A DNA stretch of 54,177 nucleotides from Poseidonibacter antarcticus. Its GTDB lineage: Bacteria > Campylobacterota > Campylobacteria > Campylobacterales > Arcobacteraceae. The notes beneath the pieces were generated by a model. It was not told the DNA's origin and did no database searches. It saw only the letters and a list, made by a program, of their open reading frames with translations. Of this stretch, positions 32,020 to 54,040 are shown piece after piece. Each line of letters starts with the position of its first letter. The first letter of the stretch is position 1. The stretch lies in assembly GCF_003667345.1 (NCBI RefSeq), contig NZ_RCWF01000015.1, forward strand, positions 1 through 54,177, written 5' to 3'. Made by a program: the position numbers and the translations under genes.

Positions 32020-32618
32020 ATTTTGTTCCTTTTGATTTTTCTTAATAACACATCCCATTTTTTATGTGCTGATGTTCTTTTTCCATTTCTTAAGATATTT
32101 GGATTGAAGTTATAAACTGGTGTTAAATCAGTTCTTTTTGATGCAGGGAATATTATACGTCTAATGCTATCTAGGATTAATGGTTCTGAATTTGGAGTTT
32201 CAAAATAAGACAAGACCATATGAGCATCTTTTAATCCAGCAACTCGTACATAAGTTAAAAACATTTTTGAAGTAGGAATACCAAGATTCTTTAATGCAAA
32301 ATATTTAGCAATTACATAATCTTCACAATCCCCTTTATCTCGAGCTAAAAATTCAGAAGGAGAAGCCCAATAATCACTAATACCATAGACTTCTTTATCA
32401 CTTTTATATTTTACAAAATTAAAAAACTCATTAACTCTTTCAAGTTTTTTCTTTGTACTACTTTTTTGTAATCTTTTTAATAACCTATTTAGTGCCACAA
32501 ATCTATTTTTTGCAAATCTATTATATTTCTTTTCCACTTTTTTTATAAGAGAAGAACTTGCAAAATCAGCTGAGTAGCTAGTAAAAATTAGTAATAAAAT
32601 GATTATAAATATTTTCAT
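32016..32618 (-). CDS. lapG: LapG-like periplasmic cysteine protease (bacterial transglutaminase-like)
   Basis: LapG cuts the N-terminus of the surface adhesin, freeing it from the cell when c-di-GMP falls. The 200-residue protein has a signal peptide (about 1-16) and the DUF920/transglutaminase-like triad Cys98 (GDCEDY), His133 (DAHMVL) and Asp150 (LILDSI). Asp97 and Glu99, next to the Cys, correspond to the calcium-binding pair known from Pseudomonas LapG. The mature length fits. It lies 63 bases after the adhesin gene and overlaps lapD by four bases, so protease and receptor are translationally coupled. Confidence 0.88.
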   Translation of the reverse strand: MKIFIIILLLIFTSYSADFASSSLIKKVEKKYNRFAKNRFVALNRLLKRLQKSSTKKKLERVNEFFNFVKYKSDKEVYGISDYWASPSEFLARDKGDCEDYVIAKYFALKNLGIPTSKMFLTYVRVAGLKDAHMVLSYFETPNSEPLILDSIRRIIFPASKRTDLTPVYNFNPNILRNGKRTSAHKKWDVLLRKIKRNKI

Positions 32619-35600: not shown

Positions 35601-38600
35601 ATCTGAATCAAGAGTATTATCTGTTATAGGAAGACTCCATTTACCAGAGTTTATGATAGTCCCTGTATCAGAAAGTATATCTCCTAAATAAGTCCCACCA
35701 ACAACACTAACACCTTCAGGAACTCCTGAAACTGTAATAGTTGTAATTTGCTCACTGCCATCTTTATCAGAAACTGAGTCAAGTTCAAATGGTACATTTA
35801 TAATGACATTTGTTTTCGCGGCAGTTACAGCATAACCAACTGTATCATCTCCACTTACTAAAGCTTTACTTGTATCAGCTGAGTTTATATTACTTATAGA
35901 TGATATTGCAGCATCAGTAATAGGAGTTACGCCAACTGTATATGTTTTTGTAATATAATCACTTGGATCACTAAAAGTTTCATTATAGATATCACTGCCA
36001 CTTGTAGTTGTGCTGTAATCAGTATAAGTTACACCACCATCTGCTACAGTATCTGAAACACTATATCTAATATCAAAGTTATAAGCTCCTGATTTATCAG
36101 CCCATGAACTATCAAGTTGTGCTGTAACAGTTTCTACGATATCATTGGTTACAGTTAATTCTACCCATTGAGCACTTCCAACTGAAGTTTGAGTTAATGT
36201 AGCATTATTTGTTATAAGAGATACACCAGCATCAATTGATTCTGTGTTTATCCAAATACTTTCAAGTTTCTCACCACTATCTGCTCGAGTAAAACTAAAG
36301 TCAAGTACATTATCTCCCGAATCTTCCTCTTGTGAATCATGAATATTTACTGTACTTTCAGCTTCTGGAGTAACTAGTATTTTTAAAGGAATAATTTCAA
36401 TTAATGATTTGTCTCCATCATCTTCAATAGTTTGAAGCTTTAAATTAAGTTCTACTTCTCCACTATAGTCTGAAGGAATTGTTAATTTAATACTATTAAA
36501 ATTGCTCGCTTCTACAACCCAATTATCACCTATTTTAACAACATCTGTTCCCGTAATACCAAAACCTGCAGGTAAATCAGAAATAGTTACAAAAAGAGTT
36601 TCTGAATCATCTCCTACTGTTGATATATCAACAGATGAGAAGTTTGGAGTATCTGATGGAAATAATGTATATAAAGAAATAGAACTTGTATCTTCTGTCA
36701 CTACTGCATTATATGTATCATCTGTAACACTATCTACAGGATTATCATAAGTTGGAGTATCTGCTACACCTGTAACTTTTACTAAAATATCTAATTTTGG
36801 TGCTGTACTTAAATCTGCTGGATTAACATCACTTCCATCAACTGCTTGTGCTTGTACTTTTAAAGTTATATTTTCATTAGAATCCTCTTCAGGAACATAA
36901 GTAAATAATTTTGATTTATCAAAATTTTTAATCTCTAATTCCCATTTTCCATCAGAACTATTTGAATCTGTTGCTACTATTTCAAAGTTCTCATCTGAGA
37001 ATTGACCTGTAGTTGAATCTGAAGTTCCAACTGTAATTGTACCACTAGAAAGTGTAACTAATTGCCCATTATAATAAATCTGTGCACCATCTGGAATATC
37101 ACTAAGTTTTAAAGTATATGATTCTGAACCATCTTTATCTGATGAACTTACACCTACATTTAGATCTATTCCTGCATCTTCATTTCCAAATGATTGTTTT
37201 ATAGCAACTGTTACATCATCTGCAATAGGATTAACTGTAATAGTTAAAGTATCTCCTTGACTAATAGCTGTGCTTGGAGATTCTTTATTACTAGCATCAT
37301 CATCATAATCTATAGATTTGATTTGTGTAGTAAGAATCATTGTTCCACTATATTCAGCAGGTGCTTTTACTTGTAAAGTATCTAAAGCAGTACTTGGAAT
37401 TTCAACTGCTGTTCCTGCATATATAAATTCTGTAGTTTCCCCACCATAAGTAAAGATTGTTCCAATTAAATCAGCACCATTTTCATCTTTTGCAGTAAAT
37501 AGTACAGTTGTTGTTTCAGATGCACTATCTTCATTTATTAAAGTAAGACCTGTAAATGTACCTTCTGTTATATTTAAATTGAAAAATTCATCTTCATTTG
37601 CTTTTGTTGCATAGTTGTGAGTTCCTTGAGTGATAATGTCATTTCCATCTGTCCCAGAAATAGTTCCTGCTGTATTTGTCTCAGTGCTTTCAGCAATAGG
37701 ACTTACTACTAAATCAAATGTTTTCACTAAATCCGTCGCTGTATTAGTAATAGGAATACCATCAATTACATTCACATCCTGTACTGTTGCAGTTACTGTA
37801 ATACTCATATCTAAACTACTATGAGCAGGTGGAGTAATTGTTGCTGCTTGGATTGTTGCTATATCCAAAATTGAGCTTCCATCACCAATAGTAAATGTAC
37901 CAGAACTATCAATAGTAGTAGTTACTCCACCATAAACAACTACACTTCCCTCATCTAGTCCTGTTATAACAACTTTCATGACACTTTCAGTTCCAGCTAT
38001 ATCTTTATCTGTCAAATCAAAATCACTTAAAAATGCTACTGCTGTATCTTCATCTGTAGTCTTCGCCACCATATCAGCAATATCATCTGCAATAGGGTTT
38101 ACATGTAAAGATAAAGTTACGCTATCTTTTGAATCATAAATAGTTTTATTTGCTAGCGTTGTAGTATCAACACTTGATTCATCGTTATGAGTAGAATCCG
38201 TATCTGTGTCATGTGCAACTAAAGTAATCGTAATATCTGACATATCACCACTAAAGTTTTTTGGTGGAGTTAATGATAATGCTGGAATTGTTCCATCACT
38301 ATTTAAATCTATAGTATAAGTTCCAGTTGTTATTGTATTTCCATTGATAATAGTACCAGATGGTAAATCACTCAACACAATACTTCTATTTTCACTTCCA
38401 TCCATATCAGCAAATGTAACTGTAAGAAGTGATTGTAAATCTAAAGGTCTATCTTCATCTATTGTTGTTTCATATGAAGTGTCAGAATTGTTAATTTTGA
38501 TATCAACTGGGTCAGTTACTGCTAAAACATCTACATCTACAGTAATTGTTGATTCTGCACCTGCAACTGGATTACCAGATATTTCAAATATATTACCACT

Positions 38601-41600
38601 TTCATCAACTTCATATTCTGTTACTTTCATTGTAACTTTAAAATCTTTCGCATCTTGAGATGATGGACGAACTTCCATTAAATTAAAATCGTCTTTTGAC
38701 ATACTTAAAGTCTCACCACTTAATCCATTAAGATGAGTATCGTTATCAGTGAATTTAATTGTAATATCTCCACCAGTTGAAGTAAAAGTATTTCCACCAT
38801 ATGATAATTCTACCCCACTTGGAATACCGCTTAAAGTAACTAAACCTAATAATTCAGGATTATCACCTAACGCAGCACCATTATTATCTGTTGTATCAGT
38901 AATAGTTGGAGCATTAAGACCTAATGCTACAGGTGTATCCTCAAGAGTATAAACAGTATCAGCATCAACTGTCACACCTGGAGCATCTGATATTGGGTTG
39001 ACAGTGAAAGTAACTGTTGTAGTTGTCGTTTGTAAAACTCCATTTTCATCTATCTCCTCTACTGTATAAGTTAGAGTATCTACTCCACTATATTCATCAT
39101 TAGGAGTGTAATGTAACTTACCATCGGTATCTATCGTAGCTATACCATGTACTGGACTTGTATGAATGCTAGTATTGCTTGAAGTTGCCCCTGCTTGTGT
39201 AGCATAAGTAGCTTCTCCACTATCTTCATCAATTGTATAATCTTGTATAGATAGATTATCATCTACTACATTAATAGTAAAGGTTTTAGTAACACTGTCT
39301 CCATCATAATCCACTACTTGATAACTAAAAGGCAGCGCAGTTGTTTCTTCAGAATTATCAATAACACCAGAAAGAGTGAATTTATATTTTGCCGAAGAAG
39401 TACTAAACTTGTTAATCTTAACAGTAAATATAGTATCTCCTCCAGCTGTTGCTGTAAGTTTATGCCCATCTGCACTAATAGTGTAAGATAAAGGCGTACC
39501 TTGTGAAGTTAAATTTAGAGCATCTAAAGTAGTTTGACTTGTACTAAATGTAGTGTCAAAACTATCTGCATCTTTATTAACTGCTAGTGAACCTGTTTGT
39601 GTTAAGGCAGCATTATCAGGATTACTACCACTTGCTAAATTCGCTTCATTAACAGTAGCTGTATCAGCTGTACCAATAGTTGGTATATCATCTATAATAG
39701 CTACTGTTAAATCATTTGCTGCAGTATCACCATCTGCATCTGTAGCTATGTAATGAAGTACAACATCTTTACTATTCTCTCCACTTGCAGCATCATGATC
39801 TATAGTACCTTTTAACTCAAAAGTATATCCTGTTGAAGCTGTTTCATTATCAGGATCTGTAATAGTTGCAACAAAAATTTCTTTTGAACCTACTTTACCT
39901 GTAATAGTATGTCCATCATCACTTAGAGTATAAACAATAGCTTTTCCATTTGAAGTAAGAGTTTCTGTTCCTGTAGTATCAAATACAGTATCAAGTGCAT
40001 CTGTACCAGATCCAATATTTAAATCCCCTGTAGCAACAAGTGTTTCTTTAACTGTATCACTACCTGAACTTAAATCATCTTCATCAAGGCTTGCAGAAGT
40101 TGCTCCATCATTTGTAGGATTAGCTCCATCTGTTACTTTAATTTCTTGAATTGCACTTGAAATGTCACCATCAAAGTCAGTGATAGTATAAGTAAAGTTA
40201 TCAGTAACCGCAGCTGTATTATTAATCTCACTACCATCTGATATATAAGACCATGAACCATCACTATTTACAGTAAGTAATCCATATTGAGTATCTACTT
40301 GTGTTCCTAGTGTTCCTGTTTGTTCATTACCCTCTTCATCAGTATATTTAAAACCTGTTACAGTTGATAGTCCATCTGCACCTGTTACATCATTATCTAG
40401 TAAATTAACACCAGTTAAAGGGACATTTCCTTCATTAACTGTAACTACACTTGTATCTTCAACTGCTGTTGGAATATCATCTGTAATATTTACTTTTATT
40501 TGTGATTCAACAGTATCATCTATTTCAACAACACTAAATGGGATATCTATATCAAGATTATTTTCACCATCTGCCGTTGTATGGTCAAGTACACCTTTAA
40601 GTTCAAAAGTATATGTACTATTTTCATCATAATCATTAGCTGTACCGTTATTATTAATAGTTACTACAAATACATCATTACCAATACTATCTTTAGCTGT
40701 TAAAACATGATTTGAATCACTTAAACTAAATGTTAAAGCTTGTCCACCTGATTTTAAACTTGTCATATTAGTATCTGCATTAATTTTTGATATATCAAAT
40801 ACTACATCTGTGATATCATCTTTTCCTGTAGTTATTCCTAATGAATTATTTTCTGATGTTAAAGATTCTTTTATTGATTCACTTCCACTTGTTAAATCAT
40901 CTTCATCAATAATTACAGTATCAATAGGTGCTACAGTTGCAATTGTATCTGTTACGGTAATTGTGTTTGTAGCTTCACTTGACACATCACCATCACCGTC
41001 AATAAGTGTATATGTGAAGCTTCCACTTGTATTACTATTATTTTCTGTTCCAACTGCTGTTGAATTATCATCATGGTCAACTGAAGCTATAGGAGTAAAT
41101 TTCCATGAACCATTTTGATTTACAGTTAATTCACCTGTTGGAGTAATTACAGTATAAGTTGTGTTTGAATCACTAAATGTTAGTGTTTCATCAGCAGTTC
41201 CATCTGCTTTTGTATATGTAAAGTTATTTAAAATAGCTTCATCTGCACCTACAATATCTACCCCACTTGTATCATCATCTGTTATCACATTTCCAGTAAT
41301 TGCAGCTGTTGTTCCTTCAACTACTGTTGCACTATTATTTTTTGCTGTTGGTACATCATCTACTATTGTAATAGTTAAGTTTGTAGCTGGTGCACTTGTT
41401 TCATTTCTATCAGTCACTGTTAATGAGATAACATCTGTAACTTCATTATTCCCATCTGCATCTGCATGCGTTTGTTCAGTTTTTAATGTATAGGTGTAGT
41501 TTATAGTTCCACTACCATCTTGATGTGTTCCATCACTTGGAGTAAAGCCATTAATTACCAAAGTACCCTCACCTGTATCAATATTGATAGCTGTTGTTCC

Positions 41601-44600
41601 ACTATCTAGTAATTGTGCTTGAGTTATATCAGTTCCACCGATGTTTACACTTACTAATCCATCTTTTGCTGAGATAGTGATTGTTCCTGATGTTGTCTCT
41701 GTAGTTGCACTTGCATCACTTCCTGTTGCCAAACCTGATTCATAAACGGTTGCATCTCCATTTGGATGAGCATCACTACTGTTACCATCTACTGCTGTAA
41801 TCGTTGGAACATCATTTGTTCCCTTGATTGTAATAGTTAATGTTGTTGTACTTGTATCACCATCTGCATCTTTGATTGTATAGGTAAAGATATCTGTTAA
41901 TGTTTCATCAGGTATAAGATGTTGTACTCTTACATCATTATTAGTAAGTGTATATATATAACGTCCATCACTCTCTATTTTTACACTTCCATAAGTGCCA
42001 TTTATACCATCTCCTACATGTTCTGTTACATCTGAACTTGTATCACTTCCTGCTGCTACTCCTAAGACTACTATTGGGGTATCTGCTCCACTTATATCAT
42101 TTTGTGTATCATCTGTTGTATTAACTATAACATTTCCATTTACTGTTAATGTTGTATCTTCTATAACTGTATTTGTATCTACATTTGCAGCTGGAACATC
42201 ATCTACAATATTTACTGTAAATGTCGTAGTTGCCACATCACCATCAAACTCAATCACTTTTACTCCAGAAGTTACTGCTAATTCATTTGCACCTGCTGCA
42301 TCAGCATGATCTAATGGAGCACTTAGGGTAAAAGTATAATCTGGTGTTGTTGTTGCTGTATCACTCAATACTGTCGTAAATACAGTTGGTCCTGAATTTC
42401 CAGCAGTTGCTGTAAGCGTATGCCCATCAACTGAGATTTTGTACACTAAATCCACTCCACCTGAACTCAATTCACTTGGAAGAGTAGAAACATCGAACTG
42501 AACATCAAATGTATCTGTTGCAGGAGTAACACTTAATTCTCCTGTAACAGATGTTGCTAGTGCATCAGTATCAGAACCATCAGGAAGTGTATTCTCATAC
42601 ATACTAACAGTAGATCCACTAATCGTAGCATCTAAATCTTTCACATTGATTGTAAGTGTTGCACTTGTTTCATCTCCATCTTTATCTTCAATAGTATAAG
42701 TAAATGTCTCTACTAGATCAGCTCCTAATGGATTATCTAAATCACTTTTTGCTTCAAAGGTATATGAACCATCACTATTAAATGTAATATATCCATCATC
42801 CGTTTCAGTTCTTGTTCCAAGTGTTATTTCAGTAGCACCATACATTAGTTTAATTACAGGACTACCAATAAATCCATCAGCATTACCATGATCAGCATTA
42901 TCTCCATTGGTTGTTCCTGTTACAACATTCCCAGTAATAGAGTTTGTTGCTCCCTCATTAATATCTCTTGTATCATTAACTGCTGTTGGTACATCATCTA
43001 CTATTGTAATAGTTAAGTTTGTAGCTGGTGCACTTGTTTCATTTCTATCAGTCACTGTTAATGAGATAACATCTGTAACTTCATTATTCCCATCTGCATC
43101 TGCATGCGTTTGTTCAGTTTTTAATGTATAGGTGTAGTTTATAGTTCCACTACCATCTTGATGTGTTCCATCACTTGGAGTAAAGCCATTAATTACCAAA
43201 GTACCCTCACCTGTATCAATATTGATAGCTGTTGTTCCACTATCTAGTAATTGTGCTTGAGTTATATCAGTTCCACCGATGTTTACACTTACTAATCCAT
43301 CTTTTGCTGAGATAGTGATTGTTCCTGATGTTGTCTCTGTAGTTGCACTTGCATCACTTCCTGCTGCCAAACCTGATTCATAAACGGTTGCATCTCCATT
43401 TGGATGAGCATCACTACTGTTACCATCTACTGCTGTAATCGTTGGAACATCATTTGTTCCCTTGATTGTAATAGTTAATGTTGTTGTACTTGTATCACCA
43501 TCTGCATCTTTGATTGTATAGGTAAAGATATCTGTTAATGTTTCATCAGGTATAAGATGTTGTACTCTTACATCATCATTAGTAAGTGTATATATATAAC
43601 TTCCATCACTCTCTATTTTTACACTTCCATAAGTGCCATTTATACCATCTCCTACATGTTCTGTTACATCTGAACTTGTATCACTTCCTGCTGCTACTCC
43701 TAAGACTACTATTGGGGTATCTGCTCCACTTATATCATCTTGTGTATCATCTGTAGTATTATTTATAACATTTCCATTTGCTGTTAATGTTGTATCTTCT
43801 ATAACTGTATTTGTATCTGCTACAGCTGTTGGAGCAGTATCTGTTACGGTAACTGTAAATTTTGCCGTTGCTGTTGCACCTGTAGAATCTTGAACTTTAT
43901 AAGTAATAACATCATCCACGCCAGTTGGATTGTTTTCAGTAGCATCAGAAGTAAAACTCCATGTTCCATCTTCATTTACTGTTACACTACCATACTGAGT
44001 ATTGGCTGTTGCAGTTATGACACCTCCAACATTTGATAATGTAGCCGTTTGAGTATTTCCCGCTTCATCTTTATACTCAAAACTTACTATTTTCCCATTT
44101 GCACCTATTTCATCATTATCGAGTAGATTAAGTGACTCTGTTGTGCTAGTAATAGTATGTGTACCCTCTACTACTGTTTCTGTTTTATTTGTGAGGTTGA
44201 TTTCATCTGTAATAGTTCCTGAACCTGTATCACTTGAATCTGTGATTTGAGAATCTGTTGTTGTTGCAGCTAGAACTACTGTTTCATTTGGTTCAGTGAT
44301 TGCATCATCTTTTACTTCTGCTCTTACTTGTACAGTTGAAGCATCTGCTGGAAGTGTGATTTTTCCATCAGCTGGAACTGCTACCCAAGAAGTACCATCA
44401 AAGAACTCTAAGTTTGATTCATAATCAGTTCCTGCTGTTGCTGTTCCACTTGTAGCTAATGTTACTTCTACATTTTCACCTACAGCGTTTGATAATTTTA
44501 CATCATATGTTAAGTATGTATTATTTGCTTCTGTTACAGTTGCTGCATCACCAACTACTACTGTTGCTGTAATATCTGAATCTACATTTGGATTATCTGT

Positions 44601-46778
44601 TCCTCTATCATCTGTAATAGTTCCTGAACCTGTATCACTTGAATCTGTGATTTGAGAATCTGTTGTTGTTGCAGCTAGAACTACTGTTTCATTTGGTTCA
44701 GTGATTGCATCATCTTTTACTTCTGCTCTTACTTGTACAGTTGAAGCATCTGCTGGAAGTGTGATTTTTCCATCAGCTGGAACTGCTACCCAAGAAGTAC
44801 CATCAAAGAACTCTAAGTTTGATTCATAATCAGTTCCTGCTGTTGCTGTTCCACTTGTAGCTAATGTTACTTCTACATTTTCACCTACAGCGTTTGATAA
44901 TTTTACATCATATGTTAAGTATGTATTATTTGCTTCTGTTACAGTTGCTGCATCACCAACTACTACTGTTGCTGTAATATCTGAATCTACAGGGTTTGTG
45001 CCTAAATCTTCTGTAATAGTTGTTGTTACATTATTATCTGTTGCATGTTCTGTTATTGCTTCGAAGTTTGTATCTGTAATAGCATTAATTGCAATATTAA
45101 AGCTTTCAGTTCCTTCTGCTAATGCATCATCAAGTGTTGTTATATCAAATGTTGTTGAGTTTGATCCTGCTGGAATTATTACTGATGATACTCCTGTAAA
45201 GTCTGTTCCATCTACTGCTACACCTGTATATGTAAATGTCACTGTAATATCTGTTTTTACATCTGTTGCTAATTGATCTACACTTACTGTATATGAAGCT
45301 GTTGTTTCACCTTCAACTACATTTGCTGGTCCTACTAAACTTACTATTGCTGTATCTTCTAAGTTATCTTCAATTACTGTCGATACTGTATCATTCCCTA
45401 AATCAATGTTTTCAAAACTTCCTGTATCTATTGGTGTTCCGATTATTACATTAAATACTTCACTTCCCTCAGCTAAAGTATCTTCTATTGTTTCTATATT
45501 AAAGTTAACACTTTGATTATTTTCATCTAATATTATTTGTACTGTATTTGTTATTATATCTTCACTGCTTGCTGATATATAACTATAAGTTAAAGGCACT
45601 GTTATTGTTTCACCTGATGCTATTACTTGATCTACTTCTATCTTATATGTTGCAGCAGAACCTTCTTCAACCAATTCATCTCCGCTAATTGATACTATTG
45701 CTGTATCTACATTATCTAAAATAGTCCCTATAGCTTCAGAATTACTAATATTTGCATTCCCTTCAACATTAGAAATATTAATTCTTACCGTTTCTCCATT
45801 ATCTGATATATAGTCATTTATAATTGGAACTTGTATTGTAGTACTTATACTTCCTGCTGGTATTGTAATACTGCCTGAAATATCAGAATAATCTTCACCA
45901 TTTGCTGATGCTGTTATAGCTGTTGTATCATAGTCAAAAGTTACAGATGAACTTAAACTTCTATCAAGAGTAACTGTAAATATTAAAAATCCATCATTTT
46001 CATAATTAGTTGCATTATTAATACTTAAGTTTCCTATTATCGGTGTAGAAACTGGTGTTTCAACAACTTCTTCTTCAGTATTATCAACAGGAATAACAGA
46101 TGGTGGTGTAGGATTAACTGTTGGTACTGAAGGAGTATTAACAATAGAATCTGTATAATCTGGTCTTTCTGTAGCATTATTTGGAGTTAATCTCCCCTCT
46201 GATTCACTCTCAAATTGAGTTAAATCTTCAAAAGTTTGAGTTCTTGCTACAAATTGCGTATTTCTCAAATCAGTATTAATATCTGTTGCAGTTCCATCTC
46301 TTGCTTCAAATTCACCACTTTCAAGTGCTTCATCTTCAGCTTCTTCTTCACCTTCTGCTGTTTCTTCTTCAGTAATATTATCATCATTATCTGATATACT
46401 ACCATCTTCTTCTAATTCAAGTTTTTCATCAACAAATTCTGCATCTCTTAAATCACTTATAATATCAACATTTGAAGATTGATCTTCACCGTTTAAATTT
46501 AAGCTTTCTCTCGTAAAAAATAATTCTTCTGTTCCGAATGCAGTTTCAATTAAAGAAGAGTCTATTAATTGTTCTTGTCCTTGACTTAAAACGATAACAT
46601 CATTACCTGAAAGTTGAATTTCTATTCGTGAAGATGATGAATTGTCACTATTACCATAGATTGTATCATTTTCATAGATTTCATCACCTACTTTTAAAAC
46701 TCTAATATTTCCATTTTCATCTTTTACATTAAAAGTTCCATTTGATAAACTTATTATACTTCCTGCAATTGTTGCCAT
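32682..46778 (-). CDS. Giant LapA-like RTX adhesin, 4698 residues
   Basis: This is a cell-surface adhesin exported by the type I system encoded upstream. Residues 1 to about 115 form a LapA-type retention module (AGSIISLSNGTFNVKDENGN then IRVLKVGD), followed by an acidic linker with a candidate LapG site, TAEG at 140-143. Three Calx-beta-like modules lie at about 245-590. A very long array of Ig/cadherin/VCBS-like modules follows, often ending in linkers such as DDVPTA. RTX calcium-binding nonapeptides lie near residues 4490-4590, before a C-terminal secretion signal. The protein is Asp/Thr/Ser-rich and I found no Cys. No conventional signal peptide is present, as expected for type I export. 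The coding frame is uninterrupted for 14.1 kb. Ligand specificity is not predictable. Confidence 0.9.
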   Translation of the reverse strand: MATIAGSIISLSNGTFNVKDENGNIRVLKVGDEIYENDTIYGNSDNSSSSRIEIQLSGNDVIVLSQGQEQLIDSSLIETAFGTEELFFTRESLNLNGEDQSSNVDIISDLRDAEFVDEKLELEEDGSISDNDDNITEEETAEGEEEAEDEALESGEFEARDGTATDINTDLRNTQFVARTQTFEDLTQFESESEGRLTPNNATERPDYTDSIVNTPSVPTVNPTPPSVIPVDNTEEEVVETPVSTPIIGNLSINNATNYENDGFLIFTVTLDRSLSSSVTFDYDTTAITASANGEDYSDISGSITIPAGSISTTIQVPIINDYISDNGETVRINISNVEGNANISNSEAIGTILDNVDTAIVSISGDELVEEGSAATYKIEVDQVIASGETITVPLTYSYISASSEDIITNTVQIILDENNQSVNFNIETIEDTLAEGSEVFNVIIGTPIDTGSFENIDLGNDTVSTVIEDNLEDTAIVSLVGPANVVEGETTASYTVSVDQLATDVKTDITVTFTYTGVAVDGTDFTGVSSVIIPAGSNSTTFDITTLDDALAEGTESFNIAINAITDTNFEAITEHATDNNVTTTITEDLGTNPVDSDITATVVVGDAATVTEANNTYLTYDVKLSNAVGENVEVTLATSGTATAGTDYESNLEFFDGTSWVAVPADGKITLPADASTVQVRAEVKDDAITEPNETVVLAATTTDSQITDSSDTGSGTITDDRGTDNPNVDSDITATVVVGDAATVTEANNTYLTYDVKLSNAVGENVEVTLATSGTATAGTDYESNLEFFDGTSWVAVPADGKITLPADASTVQVRAEVKDDAITEPNETVVLAATTTDSQITDSSDTGSGTITDEINLTNKTETVVEGTHTITSTTESLNLLDNDEIGANGKIVSFEYKDEAGNTQTATLSNVGGVITATANTQYGSVTVNEDGTWSFTSDATENNPTGVDDVITYKVQDSTGATATAKFTVTVTDTAPTAVADTNTVIEDTTLTANGNVINNTTDDTQDDISGADTPIVVLGVAAGSDTSSDVTEHVGDGINGTYGSVKIESDGSYIYTLTNDDVRVQHLIPDETLTDIFTYTIKDADGDTSTTTLTITIKGTNDVPTITAVDGNSSDAHPNGDATVYESGLAAGSDASATTETTSGTITISAKDGLVSVNIGGTDITQAQLLDSGTTAINIDTGEGTLVINGFTPSDGTHQDGSGTINYTYTLKTEQTHADADGNNEVTDVISLTVTDRNETSAPATNLTITIVDDVPTAVNDTRDINEGATNSITGNVVTGTTNGDNADHGNADGFIGSPVIKLMYGATEITLGTRTETDDGYITFNSDGSYTFEAKSDLDNPLGADLVETFTYTIEDKDGDETSATLTINVKDLDATISGSTVSMYENTLPDGSDTDALATSVTGELSVTPATDTFDVQFDVSTLPSELSSGGVDLVYKISVDGHTLTATAGNSGPTVFTTVLSDTATTTPDYTFTLSAPLDHADAAGANELAVTSGVKVIEFDGDVATTTFTVNIVDDVPAANVDTNTVIEDTTLTVNGNVIVNTTDDTQNDISGADTPIVVLGVAAGSDTSSDVTEHVGDGINGTYGSVKIESDGRYIYTLTNNDVRVQHLIPDETLTDIFTYTIKDADGDTSTTTLTITIKGTNDVPTITAVDGNSSDAHPNGDATVYESGLATGSDASATTETTSGTITISAKDGLVSVNIGGTDITQAQLLDSGTTAINIDTGEGTLVINGFTPSDGTHQDGSGTINYTYTLKTEQTHADADGNNEVTDVISLTVTDRNETSAPATNLTITIVDDVPTAKNNSATVVEGTTAAITGNVITDDDTSGVDIVGADEAILNNFTYTKADGTADETLTFSDSNTTYTVITPTGELTVNQNGSWKFTPIASVDHDDNSTAVGTENNSNTSGSFTYTLIDGDGDVSSEATNTITVTDTIATVAPIDTVIIDEDDLTSGSESIKESLTSENNSLGITTGKDDITDVVFDISKINADTNMTSLKSGGQALTFSLSDSNHVLTAKDSIGNDVFVVTINNNGTANDYDENSTYTFELKGVLDHTTADGENNLDIDIPFSVVEIDDTVESQIKVNITDDIPTAVEDTSVVTVNEGNVPLTGVNLLDNDVTGADGLSTVTGFKYTDEEGNEQTGTLGTQVDTQYGLLTVNSDGSWSYISDGSEINNTAAVTDNFTYTITDFDGDISSAIQEIKVTDGANPTNDGATSASLDEDDLSSGSDTVKETLVATGDLNIGSGTDALDTVFDTTGTETLTSNGKAIVYTLSDDGHTITGKVGSKEIFVATITDPDNETASTGYTFELKGTIDHDAASGENSKDVVLHYIATDADGDTAANDLTVAIIDDIPTIGTADTATVNEANLASGSNPDNAALTQTGSLAVNKDADSFDTTFSTSQTTLDALNLTSQGTPLSYTISADGHKLTATAGGDTIFTVKINKFSTSSAKYKFTLSGVIDNSEETTALPFSYQVVDYDGDSVTKTFTINVVDDNLSIQDYTIDEDSGEATYATQAGATSSNTSIHTSPVHGIATIDTDGKLHYTPNDEYSGVDTLTYTVEEIDENGVLQTTTTTVTFTVNPISDAPGVTVDADTVYTLEDTPVALGLNAPTITDTTDNNGAALGDNPELLGLVTLSGIPSGVELSYGGNTFTSTGGDITIKFTDNDTHLNGLSGETLSMSKDDFNLMEVRPSSQDAKDFKVTMKVTEYEVDESGNIFEISGNPVAGAESTITVDVDVLAVTDPVDIKINNSDTSYETTIDEDRPLDLQSLLTVTFADMDGSENRSIVLSDLPSGTIINGNTITTGTYTIDLNSDGTIPALSLTPPKNFSGDMSDITITLVAHDTDTDSTHNDESSVDTTTLANKTIYDSKDSVTLSLHVNPIADDIADMVAKTTDEDTAVAFLSDFDLTDKDIAGTESVMKVVITGLDEGSVVVYGGVTTTIDSSGTFTIGDGSSILDIATIQAATITPPAHSSLDMSITVTATVQDVNVIDGIPITNTATDLVKTFDLVVSPIAESTETNTAGTISGTDGNDIITQGTHNYATKANEDEFFNLNITEGTFTGLTLINEDSASETTTVLFTAKDENGADLIGTIFTYGGETTEFIYAGTAVEIPSTALDTLQVKAPAEYSGTMILTTQIKSIDYDDDASNKESPSTAISQGDTLTITVNPIADDVTVAIKQSFGNEDAGIDLNVGVSSSDKDGSESYTLKLSDIPDGAQIYYNGQLVTLSSGTITVGTSDSTTGQFSDENFEIVATDSNSSDGKWELEIKNFDKSKLFTYVPEEDSNENITLKVQAQAVDGSDVNPADLSTAPKLDILVKVTGVADTPTYDNPVDSVTDDTYNAVVTEDTSSISLYTLFPSDTPNFSSVDISTVGDDSETLFVTISDLPAGFGITGTDVVKIGDNWVVEASNFNSIKLTIPSDYSGEVELNLKLQTIEDDGDKSLIEIIPLKILVTPEAESTVNIHDSQEEDSGDNVLDFSFTRADSGEKLESIWINTESIDAGVSLITNNATLTQTSVGSAQWVELTVTNDIVETVTAQLDSSWADKSGAYNFDIRYSVSDTVADGGVTYTDYSTTTSGSDIYNETFSDPSDYITKTYTVGVTPITDAAISSISNINSADTSKALVSGDDTVGYAVTAAKTNVIINVPFELDSVSDKDGSEQITTITVSGVPEGVSVVGGTYLGDILSDTGTIINSGKWSLPITDNTLDSDGTSNTIEFNINGEAVNFNGETTTETISIGVSHQDSQDEELTNVKSFTLVIDDNFDGTDGTNDNVTDVQMDMVLTPIADVQLTEDVDFNLAQLVTATDGTTTADSSNYAILVSNLPSGYSVSGTTETKNVDGTTYYVLYGEGNVSNINTSLGNIIVSPNENENTLEIDKVDLDIKVITYTSETNQNSYLVDGTTLDAELAPVSDETTIAISGSDVAESSSPTSQTITLDLSNDADGNSRTIIKGGTVYVKFAEDYTDDSTDTVIGTITYNGTNINTLTPDGDGYYAITGITDLDTNISFVYTPPENHYGTLVIDSKVTTQEDVNGATDQNGDIYETSEVESPIASKTITITPVNDGITPFTPIMSGNEDEIVLLDFGEGHLIDITEDIISAKLTGIPFGYEVTNNGIAVTGTIIGQENGEYIYEYNFNVSSVAELEKIGVKKIGVEDFSGEITGVTLSVTSGEPGNETAQTSDSFNITFNAVADDLISFSPTDAIGDEYVNSESAWTQINLNINVQDTDGSETISVTFDGLPEDSSFSLDGGTTPIASSYDDTTGIYTISGIDYEKVNDLSVLTPTGYKGGTITTTAWTVDGSSTSAVQTTNTFDIILESKASGVTSFTSSIDNQIDTSKNNIISSSYTIALYVTSLDLLDKDGSESLYLKVSGLGDSFDLDVSSIAGVSATQNTDGDWIINIGNASDSTYEDALTALANGDIKLISTTTDGSVENIDISAYSQLEKNSDEKSDEVTVNDVALNVTVDTGTIDGTTGDDNIIGSDNADTINAGAGNDTINAGEGDDTIYGESGDDIINGEAGNDTIDGGIGTDTISGGEGDDIIDGGSENDIINADAGNDTIITDGLDTINGGTGYDIIQLEASASFDFSKLDNIEELDLTNGTHNISLSLQDVINMTDENNDLKITGNSTDSVLFEDGADNNKWSTTSTVTEDETTFDVYTNTDNASVQVKVEQIITDGITN
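33020..33315 (-). repeat. RTX nonapeptide repeats in the adhesin C-terminus
   Basis: This stretch encodes roughly nine to ten tandem GGxGxDxxx-type repeats, for example GGEGDDIID and GEAGNDTID, which fold as a calcium-binding beta roll after export. They lie about 100-110 residues before the C-terminus, followed by the secretion signal. The count is by eye. Confidence 0.85.
41344..42180 (-). repeat. Near-identical 837-bp repeat in the adhesin gene, copy 2
   Basis: This block (adhesin residues about 1533-1812) matches 42982-43818 (about 987-1266) at a period of 1638 bases, with only about ten base differences seen by eye. It encodes two consecutive domains that start near NTVIEDTTLT and end near DDVPTA. 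The first copy precedes a different 801-bp segment, so the repeat is not simply tandem. Confidence 0.85.
42982..43818 (-). repeat. Near-identical 837-bp repeat in the adhesin gene, copy 1
   Basis: This is the partner of 41344-42180. It encodes the residues around NTVIEDTTLTANGNVINN and SDAHPNGDATVYESGLAAGS. Synonymous and nonsynonymous differences are both few, which points to a recent duplication or gene conversion. Confidence 0.85.
44204..44586 (-). repeat. Exact 383-bp tandem repeat in the adhesin gene, copy 2
   Basis: This block repeats 44609-44991 at a period of 405 bases (135 residues). Reading both copies side by side I found no difference over about 383 bases. Each copy encodes a Calx-beta-like module that starts near SDITATVVVGDAATVTEANN and ends near SDTGSGTITD. 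Confidence 0.85.
44609..44991 (-). repeat. Exact 383-bp tandem repeat in the adhesin gene, copy 1
   Basis: This is the first copy in transcription order (adhesin residues about 596-723). Identity at the DNA level implies very recent duplication or continuing homogenisation, and marks a likely site of copy-number change. Confidence 0.85.
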
Positions 46779-46901: not shown

Positions 46902-47504
46902 TTAGTTACTAGATAAGTTAGAAAAAGACAATCTATCTGTTACATTTAGTTTTTCATAAATATGCTTTATATGTGTTTTTACTGTATTTATAGATATATT
47001 TAATTCTTCACTTATATTTCTATTTGTATAAGCATTTTTTAGTAAAAGTGCAATAGTTTTTTCTGTTTTTGTTAAATCAGCAAAAAGTTTTTCTTCATCA
47101 ATTTTATTATCCTTTTTTGCTATTATATTTTTTAATAATTCACTTGTGATCTCAGGTAATAACCAAATATAGTTATCTACTATAGTTTCAACAGCAGAAT
47201 TTAAATACGATGAAGTCATCAAAGAATTACCATATCCATGAACACCTTTTTCTAACCATTTTTTTGCATTATTGATTTCAGGAACTCTTTTTAATACTAA
47301 AATTTTATTTGAATTTTTTAACAATGTTGCAATCACAAAATTATTATCTTTTAAATTCACACAATCACTTAAAATTAATAAATAGTCCTTGAGTGTAAAT
47401 AATTCTTCATAATCCTCAATAATTTTAATCTTATACGCACTTAAAAAAGATTCCCATCTATTAATAAGTGAAATTTCATTGCTATAGAGTGCTATTTTCA
47501 TCAT
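46902..47504 (-). CDS. CsgD/VpsT-like LuxR-family regulator with degenerate receiver
   Basis: This 200-residue DNA-binding protein has an N-terminal receiver-like domain (about 1-115) and a C-terminal LuxR helix-turn-helix (about 140-197, with LTKTEKTIALLLKNAYTNRN and INTVKTHIKHIYEKLNV). The receiver has Asp47 at the expected strand-3 place but lacks the acidic pair after strand 1 and the conserved Lys, so normal phosphorylation is unlikely. This layout recalls CsgD and VpsT, regulators of biofilm matrix. VpsT binds c-di-GMP through a W[FLM][TS]R motif; the matching place here reads WLLP (114-117), so such binding is doubtful. It overlaps the HlyD gene by four bases. Confidence 0.75.
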   Translation of the reverse strand: MMKIALYSNEISLINRWESFLSAYKIKIIEDYEELFTLKDYLLILSDCVNLKDNNFVIATLLKNSNKILVLKRVPEINNAKKWLEKGVHGYGNSLMTSSYLNSAVETIVDNYIWLLPEITSELLKNIIAKKDNKIDEEKLFADLTKTEKTIALLLKNAYTNRNISEELNISINTVKTHIKHIYEKLNVTDRLSFSNLSSN

Positions 47505-48880
47505 CTTTCCGTAAATGTATATTGTTTTGTTTTTAAAATTGGTTTTAGAATATAATCTAAAATTGTTTTTTTACCAGTAACTATATCAACATTAGCAACC
47601 ATTCCTGGAATAATTTTCAATTGCTTATCTTCATCCCCGATGTAGTTTCTATCAGTCTCAATTCGTACTAAATAATAAGTTTTATCGTCTTTTTCTGTTA
47701 TTGTATCCGGACTTATATTTATAACTTTTCCTTCTAATCCTCCATAAATTGAAAAATCATATGCTGAAAATTTAACTATAGCTTTTTGCCCATGATAAAT
47801 AAATGCAATATCTTTTGGCAATAATTTTACTTCTACAATTAATTTATAGTCTGTTGGCACAATTTCAATTAAATCTTGTGCTGGTTTAACAGCACCACCA
47901 ATAGTATTTATATGTAATTTTTGAACAATACCATTAGATGGTGATTTAACAATTGTTCTAAAAACTTGATCTGTAGAAGCAACTGAATTTGCTTCTAAAT
48001 CTCTTAATGATGTAATTGTTTCATTAAGTTTTTGTCTAGTTTCTGAATCATTCATTTGATATGTTTCATCTATTTTTTTATTTAATTCTAAGATTTCTGA
48101 TTTTGTTTTAGAAATAGATAAAATAGCACTTTGTAATTTTTGTTTAGCATCACTTTCTTCTCTTTGAAGTTTTAAGAAATCAACTTGAGAACGTATTCCT
48201 CTTTTAACCATAGGTCTTGTCATATCAACTTCTTGTTTAATTGCATTAACTGAGAATCTCATATGAGTGATTGTTTGTCTTGCATCTTTTAATTCATTGT
48301 TTTTTTGTTTAATTTGTTCTTTTAATATCAAAACTTTTGATTTAAGTTCATTTTGATCTATTTGATACAATTCATTTTCATTATCTAAAAAAGCATTTAA
48401 TTGTTGATTATCAGTTTTTTTATAAACAAAAGGTTCTCTTTTTAATTCTGCTGTAAGTCTTTGTATTTGTGCTTGTAAATAAAAAGATTTTAATTTATTA
48501 GAAGCATCTGTTGATGATGATTTTTCATTACTTATTTTAATTAGAATTTGATTTTTTTTTACGAAATCACCCTCTTTTACTAAAATTTCAGAGACTATCC
48601 CGCCCTCTAGGTTTTGAAGGATTTGATTTTGTCCATTAGGAACTATTTTTCCATTTCCTCTTGCAATCTCATCTATTTGTGCATATGAAGCCCAAACTAT
48701 AAAAAGAGTTATTGTTATAAAAAAAGCAATCAATACCCAATGTAATTTTCTATTTCTATGATAAAGCACAGAAGCACTAACACTACTCATAAATTCATAA
48801 TCATCTTTACTCAATGACTTTTTAGGTCTTTTAGGAGTTTTTTGAAAAAATGCAGAATTAATTTCTTTTATATCAGCCAT
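47501..48880 (-). CDS. LapC-like type I secretion membrane-fusion protein (HlyD family)
   Basis: The adaptor links the ABC transporter in the inner membrane to the outer-membrane channel. The 459-residue protein has a short cytoplasmic N-terminus, one membrane span at about 46-66, a lipoyl/barrel-sandwich half (GKIVPNGQNQILQNLEGGIV), a long alpha-helical hairpin (about 135-290) and a C-terminal half with KSPSNGIVQKLHINTIGGAV and the family's closing segment. It overlaps the ABC gene by eight bases and the regulator by four, so the proteins are translated in a coupled way. Confidence 0.93.
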   Translation of the reverse strand: MADIKEINSAFFQKTPKRPKKSLSKDDYEFMSSVSASVLYHRNRKLHWVLIAFFITITLFIVWASYAQIDEIARGNGKIVPNGQNQILQNLEGGIVSEILVKEGDFVKKNQILIKISNEKSSSTDASNKLKSFYLQAQIQRLTAELKREPFVYKKTDNQQLNAFLDNENELYQIDQNELKSKVLILKEQIKQKNNELKDARQTITHMRFSVNAIKQEVDMTRPMVKRGIRSQVDFLKLQREESDAKQKLQSAILSISKTKSEILELNKKIDETYQMNDSETRQKLNETITSLRDLEANSVASTDQVFRTIVKSPSNGIVQKLHINTIGGAVKPAQDLIEIVPTDYKLIVEVKLLPKDIAFIYHGQKAIVKFSAYDFSIYGGLEGKVINISPDTITEKDDKTYYLVRIETDRNYIGDEDKQLKIIPGMVANVDIVTGKKTILDYILKPILKTKQYTFTER

Positions 48881-51032
48881 TATTTTCTCCTAATTTTTTT
48901 ATAACATCTTTCTTTTCACCATCTAAAACTTTCTCTCCATTATGCATAACGATAACTCTTGAAACTAAGTCAAGCATATTCATTTTTTGAGTAACTAGTA
49001 ATAAGGTTTTATCATTCATATCTTTTCTTAAATTATTTAAAACATGACTTTCACTAGTTTGATCCATTGCATTTGTGGGTTCATCAAACAAATACATATT
49101 AGAATTATTTATCAAGGCTCTAGCTATTCCAACACTTTGTCTTTGACCACCTGAAAGTCCTGCACCTCTTTCACCAATAGGCATATCATAACCCATAGGA
49201 TGTAATTTTACAAATTCATCAGTACCACTAATTTTTGAACATTTAAGCATCCATTCATCATCAACAAATTTATAAGATCCCAATATATTATTTTTTATAC
49301 TATTCCTAAATAAATGAATATCTTGTGGTACATAACTTACTTTTTTTCTTAAATCTGCAGGATCAATTTGTGAAATATCTATTCCATCAATTAATACAGA
49401 ACCACTTTCAGGTTCATATAATTTTAAAATTAATTTTGCGATAGTTGACTTACCTGAACCAATTCTTCCAATAAATGCAACTTTTTCACCTTCTTTTATA
49501 GAAAAACTTACATTTTTTAATGCATATGCTTCACTATCAGGATATTTAAAAGATACATTTCTAAATTCAATATTTCCTTTTAAAGAAGGTCTTTTTACAA
49601 ACTCTCTAGCAAGTGGTCTTTCTAATGGTTTATTAACTATTTCATCAAGCATATTAAACGAAGTTTTTGCATCTTCATAATTAGTTATAAGTCCTGCTAT
49701 TTGTCCCATTGGAGCAATAGCACGTCCTGATAAAATCATTGTAGCTATTAACCCACCCATTGTTAATTCAAATTCTTGGATAAGATAAACTCCAAAAACA
49801 ATTATTAAAACAGTATTTAATCCAACTAATAAACCTGTAACCGTTGGAATTGAAGAGGATAATAATCTTGATTTTAGACTTTTATTAGCAATCTCACCTG
49901 TGGATTCTTCCCAATTAAACTGAATATTTCCTGACATTCCTTGTGCTTTAATTGTTTCTATATTTTGTAAAGCTTCAATTAGTATCCCATTTTTCTTAGC
50001 ACTTGCTTCATAAGTACTTTCAATACTTGTTTGTAAAGGTTTTTTAACAATTAATGCATAAATTATTATTATTAGAATAATTATCATAGGAACAAAAACC
50101 AAAATACCTGAAATATAAAAAATCACACATAAAAAGAGTATTGCGAAAGGGAAATCAATAAGTACACTTAACGTTGCATTTGTTAAAAAACCTCTAATAC
50201 TATCAAAACTTTTTAAATTATTTGCAAAAGAACCAACAGATTTTGGATGTGCATCCATTTGTAAATCTAAAACTTTTTCAAATATAATAGAAGACATAAT
50301 AATATCACTTTTTTTACCAGCCATTTCTAAAAAATATGTTCTTAAAAATTTTAATGTTGCATCCAAAAGGAAGACAACAACTATACCTATTGTAAACACA
50401 AGTAAAGTTTCTTGTGCATTATTGGGAATAACTCTATCATATACGTTCATAGTAAATAATGGAGTAGCAAGAACAAATAAATTTATTAAAATTGAGGCTA
50501 GAATACAATCCATATAAATTTTTCTTGAAAAACCTAAAGTACTCCAAAACCAATGTTTTTGATTATTTAAATCAAGTGTTTTTTTACCATTTTCATGTTC
50601 ATACTCATAAGCTTTTTTTAACATAAAAGCAAAACCTAAATATTCTTCTTCAAGTTTATCTACATCTATCCACTCTTCTAAAGGTTCTTCAACACCTGCA
50701 AAAATAATTTTTGCTTTTGTTTTATCATCAGAGAAATTTTCTAAAATACAACTATTCCCATTTGATAAAAGTAATATTACAGGTAATTGTAGAGCTAAAA
50801 TATCTTTAATTGATCTTTGAATAATAGTTGTTTTTAATCCTGCTCTTGATGCTGCTCTTGAAAATAAAGATTTAGAATTTGTTTTTGAAAAAAGCATTGG
50901 AGAACTTAAGTTTGTATCCATTGGTAAACCAGATAATAAAGATTCTGAAGAAAAAGGTTTATGGAATAACCTTGTATATAAAACTAAAGACTCCAATAAA
51001 GTGTCTTCAGTTTTTAAAATTTTTTTTCTCAT
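48873..51032 (-). CDS. LapB-like type I secretion ABC transporter
   Basis: The transporter drives export of the giant adhesin with ATP. The 719-residue protein has an N-terminal C39-like domain (about 1-135) in which the catalytic Cys is absent, as in RTX-toxin and adhesin exporters, then a six-span membrane domain (about 170-440) and a nucleotide-binding domain with Walker A GRIGSGKS at 522-529, signature LSGGQRQ and Walker B MYLFDEPT. Everything needed for activity is present. It lies 13 bases after the channel gene. Confidence 0.94.
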   Translation of the reverse strand: MRKKILKTEDTLLESLVLYTRLFHKPFSSESLLSGLPMDTNLSSPMLFSKTNSKSLFSRAASRAGLKTTIIQRSIKDILALQLPVILLLSNGNSCILENFSDDKTKAKIIFAGVEEPLEEWIDVDKLEEEYLGFAFMLKKAYEYEHENGKKTLDLNNQKHWFWSTLGFSRKIYMDCILASILINLFVLATPLFTMNVYDRVIPNNAQETLLVFTIGIVVVFLLDATLKFLRTYFLEMAGKKSDIIMSSIIFEKVLDLQMDAHPKSVGSFANNLKSFDSIRGFLTNATLSVLIDFPFAILFLCVIFYISGILVFVPMIIILIIIIYALIVKKPLQTSIESTYEASAKKNGILIEALQNIETIKAQGMSGNIQFNWEESTGEIANKSLKSRLLSSSIPTVTGLLVGLNTVLIIVFGVYLIQEFELTMGGLIATMILSGRAIAPMGQIAGLITNYEDAKTSFNMLDEIVNKPLERPLAREFVKRPSLKGNIEFRNVSFKYPDSEAYALKNVSFSIKEGEKVAFIGRIGSGKSTIAKLILKLYEPESGSVLIDGIDISQIDPADLRKKVSYVPQDIHLFRNSIKNNILGSYKFVDDEWMLKCSKISGTDEFVKLHPMGYDMPIGERGAGLSGGQRQSVGIARALINNSNMYLFDEPTNAMDQTSESHVLNNLRKDMNDKTLLLVTQKMNMLDLVSRVIVMHNGEKVLDGEKKDVIKKLGENNG

Positions 51033-51045
51033 TAATTAACCTTCT

Positions 51046-53622
51046 TTATTTATTTTCTACTCTTTTAAGTACAGCTTCAATTCTTCTATTTAATGCTCGA
51101 CCTTCTACTGTATCATTACTCGTAACTGGCTCACTAAAACCTCTTCCTATTGCTTCTATTCTATATAATTCAATTCCATTTTCTACTAATAAATTTTTTA
51201 TAGCTTCTGCTCTTCTTTCTGACAACTTTTGATTGTAAATAACACCTGATCTAATATTATCTTTACTTGCATGCCCTGTTATTACTGTATTAAACTCTTT
51301 ATTATCTTTTAAATATTTCGCAAATGCTAATACTTTCTCTTTTGTATTTGTTTTTACTATTGCTGAGTCATTTTCAAATAATACTTCTAAGTTTATTTTA
51401 TTTGTACATCCATTTTCATCTACTGTATATCCTGCTGGTGTATTTGGACATTTATCTAATGAATTTACTACTCCATCTTTATCATCATCTAATACTATTG
51501 GTGCGTCTATTGCTTTTGGTACATATAATGCTATTGCTACTACATTATTTAATGTCTTATCTTCTTTATTTATTTCTAGGTATGCTTTATCATAATCTAC
51601 TCTTGATTCTTCTATTAGCACATCTTTATTTACACCTCTTTTTACTAATTCATCTTTTATTATTTTTGAATAAGATGCTGCTTTTTCATAACTTCTATTT
51701 TTATCTTTCATCTCTTGTGTATGACCGATTATTGTTACTTTTATATTTTGATCTTTATATTTTGAGATTTCATTAGCTATTATTGATAAACCCTTATCAT
51801 TAAAATCAAATTTATCCATATTTAAGAATTCAAATCTTTTTATCAAGGCAAATTTATCATACATTAGGTGATTATCTAAGGCTGTTGATTTCACATTCTT
51901 ATTTGCTGCTACATTAAATTCATAATCATACAGTCCTAATTTATCTGATTTTTTTGGGCTTTCATTTGTATATGAAACTACTTCATTTACATAATCTTCT
52001 TTATTTACTGTAAATTTATTAATTGAATTCTCTATTTCACAACCATTTTCATCTACTGTTACTCCAAATGCACTTTCTGGACATTTATCTTTAGAGTTAA
52101 TTATTCCATCTAAGTCTGAGTCTTCTTCTTTTTGAGAACATCCATATGGCGTTATATCATTATTATTTATTGAGTTATCACAAATATCTAAAGAGTCTAC
52201 TATTTTATCTGAGTCTACATCTTGATTTACTGGCAATTTATCTTTTACTATTGTAAATGGTTTTAATGTTGGAGCTGCTATTTTATTATATTCTGCACTA
52301 TCTTCTACTACTGTATTTACTAATAATCCCATTGCATCTAATATTCTATATTGTGAGTATAATTTATCCATTTGTGCATTTATTATTTGACTTTTTGAGC
52401 TTACTAAGTCATTTTGTGCTGATAGTAGGTCAAGTAGTGTTCTTCTTCCTAATTCATATTCACTTTGGTAACTTTCTAATGTTTCTTGTGAATAATTATA
52501 GTATTTATATAATTCTTCTAATTGATTACCTATTAATTTATATGCAGACCACGATAATTCTAGTCCTTCAATTGTTTGTCTTTTTAGGTCTCTTTGTATT
52601 TCTACTTCTTTATTTATTGTACTTTTACTTTTTTGTATATCTGATATATGTGCTCCACCACTATATAGATTCCAGTTTACTACTACATATGCTTTTGATC
52701 TATCATCTGGAGAGTCAAAGCTATTTGTATGATTTGAATCATCAAACACTTGTTCTAATTCTAAATCTATTGTTGGGTAAAAATTACTTTTTTTCTCTTT
52801 ATATAATGCTTGTGCACCTTTTATATTAAAATTACTTACTAAAATTGAAGGATTATTTTTTATTGCGTACATTGTTGCACGTTCAATACTCTCTGGCATC
52901 GCATAATTTAAGCTTGGTAATGTAAATGTTGACACGTCTGCATCTCGTCCAAACAATCTTTTAAATCTAAACTCTTTATCTACTGTATTATTCTTTTGCA
53001 CAATCATATTTGATTTTGCTAATGACAAGGATGCATATATTTTTGTCATCTCTGATTTTGTTGTTAATCCTTGTTTAAAAAGTGAGTTTACATCTTCATA
53101 TATCTTTTCATTCACTACCACATTATCTTTTGCATTTTGATACAATTGATAACTTCTTACTACATCTAAATATGCTCCTACCATTTGGAATGCTATATCA
53201 TTTGCATTTTCTAAATAATTATATGCTGCACCTAATATTCTTGCTTCTTGGTAATCTATTTTATGTGTTGTACTAAATCCATTAAATAAATTTTGTGTTA
53301 ATTTTAGTGAATTTGTATAGCTATTATAGCTTTCATCAGTTACTTGGTGATCATATTTTCCACCTGCTGAATCTTTTATATTTCCTGCACTATTTATTCC
53401 AAATGTACCCACATAATCCAAAGATGGTAGCCATTCAGATTTTGTAATTTCTAAATCTTGTTGTGTTTCATTAAAGTTTTTTAATCTTTCTTGAACTACA
53501 GGATTTGTATGTAATGCTTCTAACACACTTTCTTTTAGTGTCAATGCTTGTACGTTTATACTTAATATGCACACACTACTAGCTATTACACTAAATAACC
53601 TCTTTTTATTTTTTAGTTTCAT
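51046..53622 (-). CDS. TolC-like outer-membrane channel fused to two OmpA-like domains (LapE analogue)
   Basis: The first part is a type I secretion outer-membrane channel of the TolC/LapE kind: signal peptide (about 1-26), paired outer-membrane efflux repeats (about 27-445) with ALTLKESVLEALHTNPVVQE. It then continues for over 400 residues instead of ending near 450. Residues 468-530 hold thrombospondin type 3-like Asp-rich repeats (DSDLDGIINSKDKCP), about 598-702 a divergent OmpA-like fold (KVTIIGHTQ), 710-742 another Asp-rich repeat (DDDKDGVVNSLDKCP), and 743-856 a complete OmpA peptidoglycan-binding domain (VITGHASKDN, LSERRAEAIKN, GRALNRRIEAVL). The fusion would tie the exit pore, and the adhesin held in it, to the cell wall. 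It is uninterrupted at DNA level and starts the Lap block. Confidence 0.9.
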   Translation of the reverse strand: MKLKNKKRLFSVIASSVCILSINVQALTLKESVLEALHTNPVVQERLKNFNETQQDLEITKSEWLPSLDYVGTFGINSAGNIKDSAGGKYDHQVTDESYNSYTNSLKLTQNLFNGFSTTHKIDYQEARILGAAYNYLENANDIAFQMVGAYLDVVRSYQLYQNAKDNVVVNEKIYEDVNSLFKQGLTTKSEMTKIYASLSLAKSNMIVQKNNTVDKEFRFKRLFGRDADVSTFTLPSLNYAMPESIERATMYAIKNNPSILVSNFNIKGAQALYKEKKSNFYPTIDLELEQVFDDSNHTNSFDSPDDRSKAYVVVNWNLYSGGAHISDIQKSKSTINKEVEIQRDLKRQTIEGLELSWSAYKLIGNQLEELYKYYNYSQETLESYQSEYELGRRTLLDLLSAQNDLVSSKSQIINAQMDKLYSQYRILDAMGLLVNTVVEDSAEYNKIAAPTLKPFTIVKDKLPVNQDVDSDKIVDSLDICDNSINNNDITPYGCSQKEEDSDLDGIINSKDKCPESAFGVTVDENGCEIENSINKFTVNKEDYVNEVVSYTNESPKKSDKLGLYDYEFNVAANKNVKSTALDNHLMYDKFALIKRFEFLNMDKFDFNDKGLSIIANEISKYKDQNIKVTIIGHTQEMKDKNRSYEKAASYSKIIKDELVKRGVNKDVLIEESRVDYDKAYLEINKEDKTLNNVVAIALYVPKAIDAPIVLDDDKDGVVNSLDKCPNTPAGYTVDENGCTNKINLEVLFENDSAIVKTNTKEKVLAFAKYLKDNKEFNTVITGHASKDNIRSGVIYNQKLSERRAEAIKNLLVENGIELYRIEAIGRGFSEPVTSNDTVEGRALNRRIEAVLKRVENK

Positions 53623-53905: not shown

Positions 53906-53924
53906 TTTGAATAAATACTCAAGA

Positions 53925-54040
53925 GCTGGCAGTGACCTACGTTTCCGACAAGGGGACCCTGCAGTATTATCAGCGATGAAGAGCTTGACTTCCAGGTTCG
54001 AAATGGGACTGGGTATTTCCTCTTCTCTATAACCACCAGC
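53925..54040 (-). rRNA. rrf: 5S ribosomal RNA
   Basis: The minus strand reads GCTGGTGGTTATAGAGAAGA near the 5' end, then ACCCAGTCCCATTTCGAACC and GGTCACTGCCAGC at the 3' end. The first and last bases pair to close the molecule, and the loop B/C landmark is intact. Ends are placed by the closing stem and may shift by one or two bases. The 23S gene would lie to the right, beyond the window. Confidence 0.93.

Follow-up and report, generated by a model that had tools for sequence, protein, structure and literature searches.

Why would the channel of an adhesin secretion system continue into a long tail of OmpA character, and what would that tail do? The LapE/AggA channels of the Lap (LapA-LapG-LapD) systems of Pseudomonas fluorescens and Shewanella are TolC-family proteins encoded beside LapB, LapC, a giant adhesin, LapG and LapD. 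The channel encoded in the window (the whole stretch of DNA that was analysed, 54,177 nucleotides of the marine bacterium Poseidonibacter antarcticus) is likewise of the TolC family and has the same kinds of neighbours but, unlike LapE/AggA, has a tail of about 410 further residues in which TSP3-like segments accompany two OmpA folds. The reading we favour, with a probability of about 0.6, is that such a channel was fused to a neighbouring OmpA-like gene and that the tail tethers the channel and the adhesin retained in it to peptidoglycan.

The fused chain and its gene cluster

The channel gene is one open reading frame, from ATG to stop and free of internal stops, and thus unbroken at the DNA level, as the earlier note had claimed. 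Its parts and the genes that accompany it are as follows.

51046..53622, minus strand: channel protein of 858 residues, LapE-type fused to an OmpA-type partner, in the order TolC-TSP3-TSP3-OmpA-like-TSP3-OmpA
53545..53622, minus strand: probable Sec signal peptide, residues 1-26 (..VQA-LTLKES), by eye
52288..53544, minus strand: TolC/OEP channel domain, residues 27-445 (Pfam OEP, TIGR01844, AlphaFold2, Foldseek to TolC)
52138..52221, minus strand: TSP3-like Asp/Cys segment 1, residues 468-495 (motif, invariant Cys481 and Cys495)
52039..52122, minus strand: TSP3-like Asp/Cys segment 2, residues 501-528 (Pfam TSP_3, motif)
51505..51936, minus strand: middle region, residues 563-706, apparent former mature N-terminus (GLYDYEF) and divergent OmpA-like fold (AlphaFold2, alignment, profile comparison)
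51406..51489, minus strand: TSP3-like Asp/Cys segment 3, residues 712-739 (Pfam, motif, invariant cysteines)
51061..51399, minus strand: complete OmpA domain, residues 742-854, with Arg804 kept and Ser786 at the usual Asp position (Pfam, Foldseek, 3td5 match, alignment)
48873..51032, minus strand: LapB-type ABC transporter, LssB subfamily (TIGR03375, 867 bits, over cut-off)
47501..48880, minus strand: LapC/HlyD-type adaptor (TIGR01843, 390 bits, over cut-off)
46902..47504, minus strand: LuxR-type (GerE) regulator (Pfam GerE, 1.2e-13)
32682..46778, minus strand: LapA-like giant adhesin, 4698 residues, RTX-like C-terminus
46350..46361, minus strand: TAEG, adhesin residues 140-143, candidate LapG cleavage site (by-eye comparison with relatives)
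32016..32618, minus strand: LapG-like periplasmic cysteine protease (Pfam Peptidase_C93, 3.3e-14)
30130..32058, minus strand: LapD-like c-di-GMP receptor (LapD_MoxY_N, GGDEF, EAL; Pfam, 2.3e-26)

In the 858-residue chain, Pfam matched OEP twice (7.1e-51), OmpA in two stretches (7.5e-23, best at 748-846) and TSP_3 (3.8e-6). The NCBIfam model TIGR01844 (type_I_sec_TolC) covered residues 25-446 with 239.7 bits against a cut-off of 225.15, and the terminal OmpA domain reached 81.2 bits against PF00691, whose gathering score is 27.2. AlphaFold2, run with 21 homologues, predicted a TolC fold of long helices and four strands followed by two beta-alpha-beta domains at about 591-702 and 742-854; the mean pLDDT of the full chain was 68.7, with low values in the linkers 454-498 and 541-589. 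Foldseek matched the predicted chain to E. coli TolC (4.8e-19) and to the peptidoglycan-binding OmpA-C domain of OprF (1e-7). A separate model of residues 560-858 (299 residues, pLDDT 81.8) matched OmpA domains and superimposed on the complex of Acinetobacter baumannii OmpA with a peptidoglycan peptide (3td5) with a Z score of 16.2 and an rmsd of 2.9 over 115 residues. Thus, both the TolC-like channel and the complete OmpA fold that had been placed at 743-856 were recovered. Since the rows of the structure alignment span only residues 171-297 of that model, the fold of the middle domain rests on the model itself and on profile comparison, in which it matched the terminal OmpA profile with a probability of 98.0% (E 1.7e-13) while 30 column-shuffled controls gave at most 2.2%. 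The middle domain (about 586-706) is clearly OmpA-like and, by profile comparison, a diverged OmpA fold, in agreement with the earlier note.

The note had counted two TSP3-like segments, whereas there are three, each with the pattern DxDxDxxxxxxDxC...GC, and their six cysteines are invariant among five orthologues. Compared with three relatives, every segment of the chain for which dN/dS could be computed gave 0.10 to 0.28. The whole chain is therefore under purifying selection, which preserves the tail and shows that it is not in decay.

The channel gene is the first of a complete Lap-type adhesin cluster, ordered as channel, LapB-type transporter, adaptor, LuxR-type regulator, LapA-like adhesin, LapG-like protease and LapD-like receptor, which bears out the LapA-like neighbourhood proposed before. 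Only 13 bases separate it from the downstream transporter gene. The LapG-like and LapD-like proteins both scored below the NCBIfam equivalog cut-offs (the protease had 170 bits against NF045674, cut-off 320), and the retention module of the adhesin matched NF033682 weakly, with 16.4 bits against a cut-off of 50. Related adhesins share an ETAAG motif, and the equivalent place in the window adhesin reads ETAEG. Upstream of the channel gene, some 300 bases away, the contig ends with a 5S rRNA gene (53924-54040, minus strand). The same genome encodes a second LapB-type type I secretion system (G000:C3:1201-2562, L057); the C-terminus of its channel is SPOR-like, although Pfam did not confirm the domain.

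Origin of the fusion

That the join arose from a fault of assembly or reading frame, or is two genes read through and in decay, is contradicted by its presence elsewhere. Full fusions occur in the genera Aliarcobacter, Arcobacter and Poseidonibacter. A frame of 847-921 codons that covers the middle domain is present in 26 of 101 Arcobacteraceae genomes, the fusion in a genome of the same genus (G001) is 77% identical, and pACLO, a complete plasmid of Arcobacter cloacae LMG 26153, holds the whole cluster in identical order, with a channel of 76% identity annotated merely as "TolC family outer membrane protein." These independent assemblies rule out an assembly artefact, which the earlier note had named as a possible refutation, and the join is genuine; with purifying selection along the entire chain, the chance that it is an artefact or a decaying read-through is negligible. 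On this 189-kb A. cloacae plasmid (L193; NZ_CP053834.1, 95240-137813) an integrase gene adjoins the Lap-type cluster with its fusion, and the cluster may thus be mobile.

When 100 channels were placed on a tree, all 13 full fusions from Arcobacteraceae fell into one clade with a support of 100. Its sister, joined to it with a support of 98, is a two-gene form found at two loci (L043 and L044), in which a channel of 534-535 residues is followed by a separate protein of 326-328 residues, made up of the middle domain, a TSP3-like segment and an OmpA domain, and then by LapB. After its signal peptide, the separate protein begins with GVYDYPY/GLYDDSY, and this mature N-terminus aligns with GLYDYEF of the fused chain at residue 563; thus, the fusion resembles a channel to which the downstream protein was joined minus its signal peptide. 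Both forms occur together in one genome (G016). Sulfurimonas has a third arrangement, in which a channel with a TSP3-like segment and an OmpA domain (about 670 residues) precedes a separate gene for a middle domain, TSP3-like segment and OmpA domain. The fusion is best read as the single-chain version of a known two-gene arrangement, formed when the LapE/AggA-type channel gene was joined to its neighbour, which encoded an OmpA-like protein of the periplasm. The label "channel with OmpA" changed at least six times on well-supported branches of the tree, in which deep placements are uncertain owing to long branches; OmpA fusions to channels therefore arose or were lost repeatedly. The N-termini of the adhesins that belong to the two-gene form lack the ETAAG motif of other relatives, so their release may differ.

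The tail and peptidoglycan

TolC proteins have their C-termini in the periplasm, at about the height of the peptidoglycan layer, so that each channel should bear three flexible arms with two OmpA folds each. With the equatorial domain of TolC also thought to be near peptidoglycan (PMC13082787), these arms would be rightly placed. We propose that the channel, as a trimer, exports the LapA-like adhesin, whose N-terminal module would then keep it lodged in the channel until cleavage by LapG under the control of LapD. The terminal OmpA domains would most likely grip peptidoglycan, moor the loaded channel to the wall and resist pull-out under shear. Since the channel chain bears two domains of the wall-gripping kind, the adhesin is probably moored not to the membrane alone but also to the wall.

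The C-terminal domains of OmpA proteins bind peptidoglycan by way of an Asp and an Arg in contact with diaminopimelate, which in A. baumannii OmpA are Asp271 and Arg286 (cited in PMC5974059). Arg804 corresponds to this Arg and is invariant in 23 aligned proteins. The contact Asp is replaced by Ser786. As read from the aligned motifs, Ser occupies this position in every one of the 15 full fusions examined from Arcobacteraceae, in both Arcobacteraceae proteins of the two-gene form and in 12 of the 14 fusions of Sulfurimonas type; Asp is kept in the separate Sulfurimonas OmpA proteins and in 4 of 5 gammaproteobacterial fusions. Asp788 of the window protein is not conserved among the orthologues. 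As judged from the alignment, the Asp-to-Ser change is fixed and lineage specific, and neither contact residue was present in the middle domain. Ser at this position lowers confidence in classical diaminopimelate binding but still allows wall binding, which we consider plausible for the tail. The OmpA folds could instead no longer bind the wall and act as docking sites for LapG, LapD, LapC or each other, as the fixed replacement in the terminal domain and the absence of both residues from the middle domain might suggest. The invariant Arg, the Asp retained in Sulfurimonas partners and most gammaproteobacterial fusions, and the presence on some related channels of SPOR, a different wall-binding fold, instead of OmpA speak against this, and we regard docking as quite improbable.

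Anchoring to peptidoglycan is thus still the best reading, because the OmpA part is a separate neighbouring gene in close relatives and because OmpA domains, or SPOR domains with Pfam support, occur on related channels of many lineages; the earlier note's proposal stands to that extent, and the fixed Ser weakens it. Its premise that only the outer membrane would otherwise hold the tether was too strong, since the channel gene of the sister lineages and of Shewanella has a separate OmpA-like gene for company. The bpfA cluster of Shewanella oneidensis has an OmpA-like gene, SO4321, with the channel genes on one side and bpfG on the other, and biofilm formation is affected when it is deleted (PMC4523816). 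SO4321 is encoded with AggA and BpfG/BpfD, and its likeness to the tail is one of position and annotation only; it is a separate gene, whereas the OmpA part in the window is fused to the channel. That the two are fused in nature points to the channel as the place where the OmpA partner acts and makes its role testable.

Other systems share single elements of the proposed tether. In Acinetobacter Tol 5, the peptidoglycan-binding periplasmic protein TpgA reinforces the anchor of the giant adhesin AtaA (PMC13082670). The idea of a giant-adhesin anchor with a wall-binding periplasmic partner is the same, but AtaA is a trimeric autotransporter, the two proteins are separate and the anchor is unrelated. 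The module of OprF/OmpA-type proteins also consists of a TSP3-like segment followed by an OmpA domain, and the window tail is 45% identical to part of an OmpA-family protein from the same genome; there, however, the module sits on a small barrel, whereas here it sits on a TolC channel and has Ser for the diaminopimelate-contact Asp.

Wall-binding domains on related channels

How often the fusion occurs, a question raised in the earlier note, was addressed with a survey of 200 Campylobacterota genomes that was anchored on LapB-type transporters rather than on the fusion itself. The TIGR03375 cut-off was passed by 65 loci in 55 genomes. OmpA was present in the channel chain at 10 loci, a SPOR-like C-terminus at 4 (called by a profile built for this analysis) and a neighbouring OmpA gene at 2; at 45 loci neither OmpA nor SPOR was detectable on or next to the channel, and at 4 the channel was not found. 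Its presence in about a quarter of the Arcobacteraceae genomes makes the fusion common. A tether is not essential, given the 45 loci without a detectable wall-binding domain. SPOR exceeded the Pfam cut-off on three channels (L046, L053 and L151). Among 40 gammaproteobacterial loci, a channel was nearby in 26, of which 5 had OmpA and 1 had SPOR (calls Pfam-confirmed for the representatives scanned); an architecture comparable to that of the Arcobacteraceae fusion is present in Gammaproteobacteria. A literature search, thin in subscription journals, found no paper on a TolC-OmpA fusion.

The arms might bind the wall and yet serve chiefly to place or steady the channel while it is assembled and while it exports, without carrying adhesive load. 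E. coli TolC likewise has an accessory periplasmic module, the DUF3828 lipoprotein YbjP, which seemingly lacks avid peptidoglycan binding and evident load bearing (PMC13082787), and some fusions lie beside LssB-type transporters with no LapG gene in the stretch examined. Yet the channels on which the survey met OmpA and SPOR additions belong to LssB-type systems, and a LapA-like gene adjoins many of them; a mainly positioning role seems rather unlikely to us. The favoured reading, tethering of the loaded channel to the wall, could be extended, tentatively, to a recurrent layer of Lap-type systems, in which fused OmpA, separate OmpA and SPOR would serve one mechanical need and the Ser pocket would be a channel-specific way of binding the wall; we regard this extension as possible but doubtful.

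An N-terminal SPOR-like domain was considered for the channels of one Campylobacterota genus (g25; L055 and similar) and rejected, as an independent profile and Pfam both missed it; these channels were counted as having neither domain. They have an N-terminal extension, the first 110-150 residues, before the TolC part. Further C-terminal additions were a BBP2_2 beta-barrel (871 residues; L166:182-2797), Sel1 repeats (740 residues; L130:10629-12851) and, on a 751-residue channel, Big_9 plus OmpA (L189:13356-15611).
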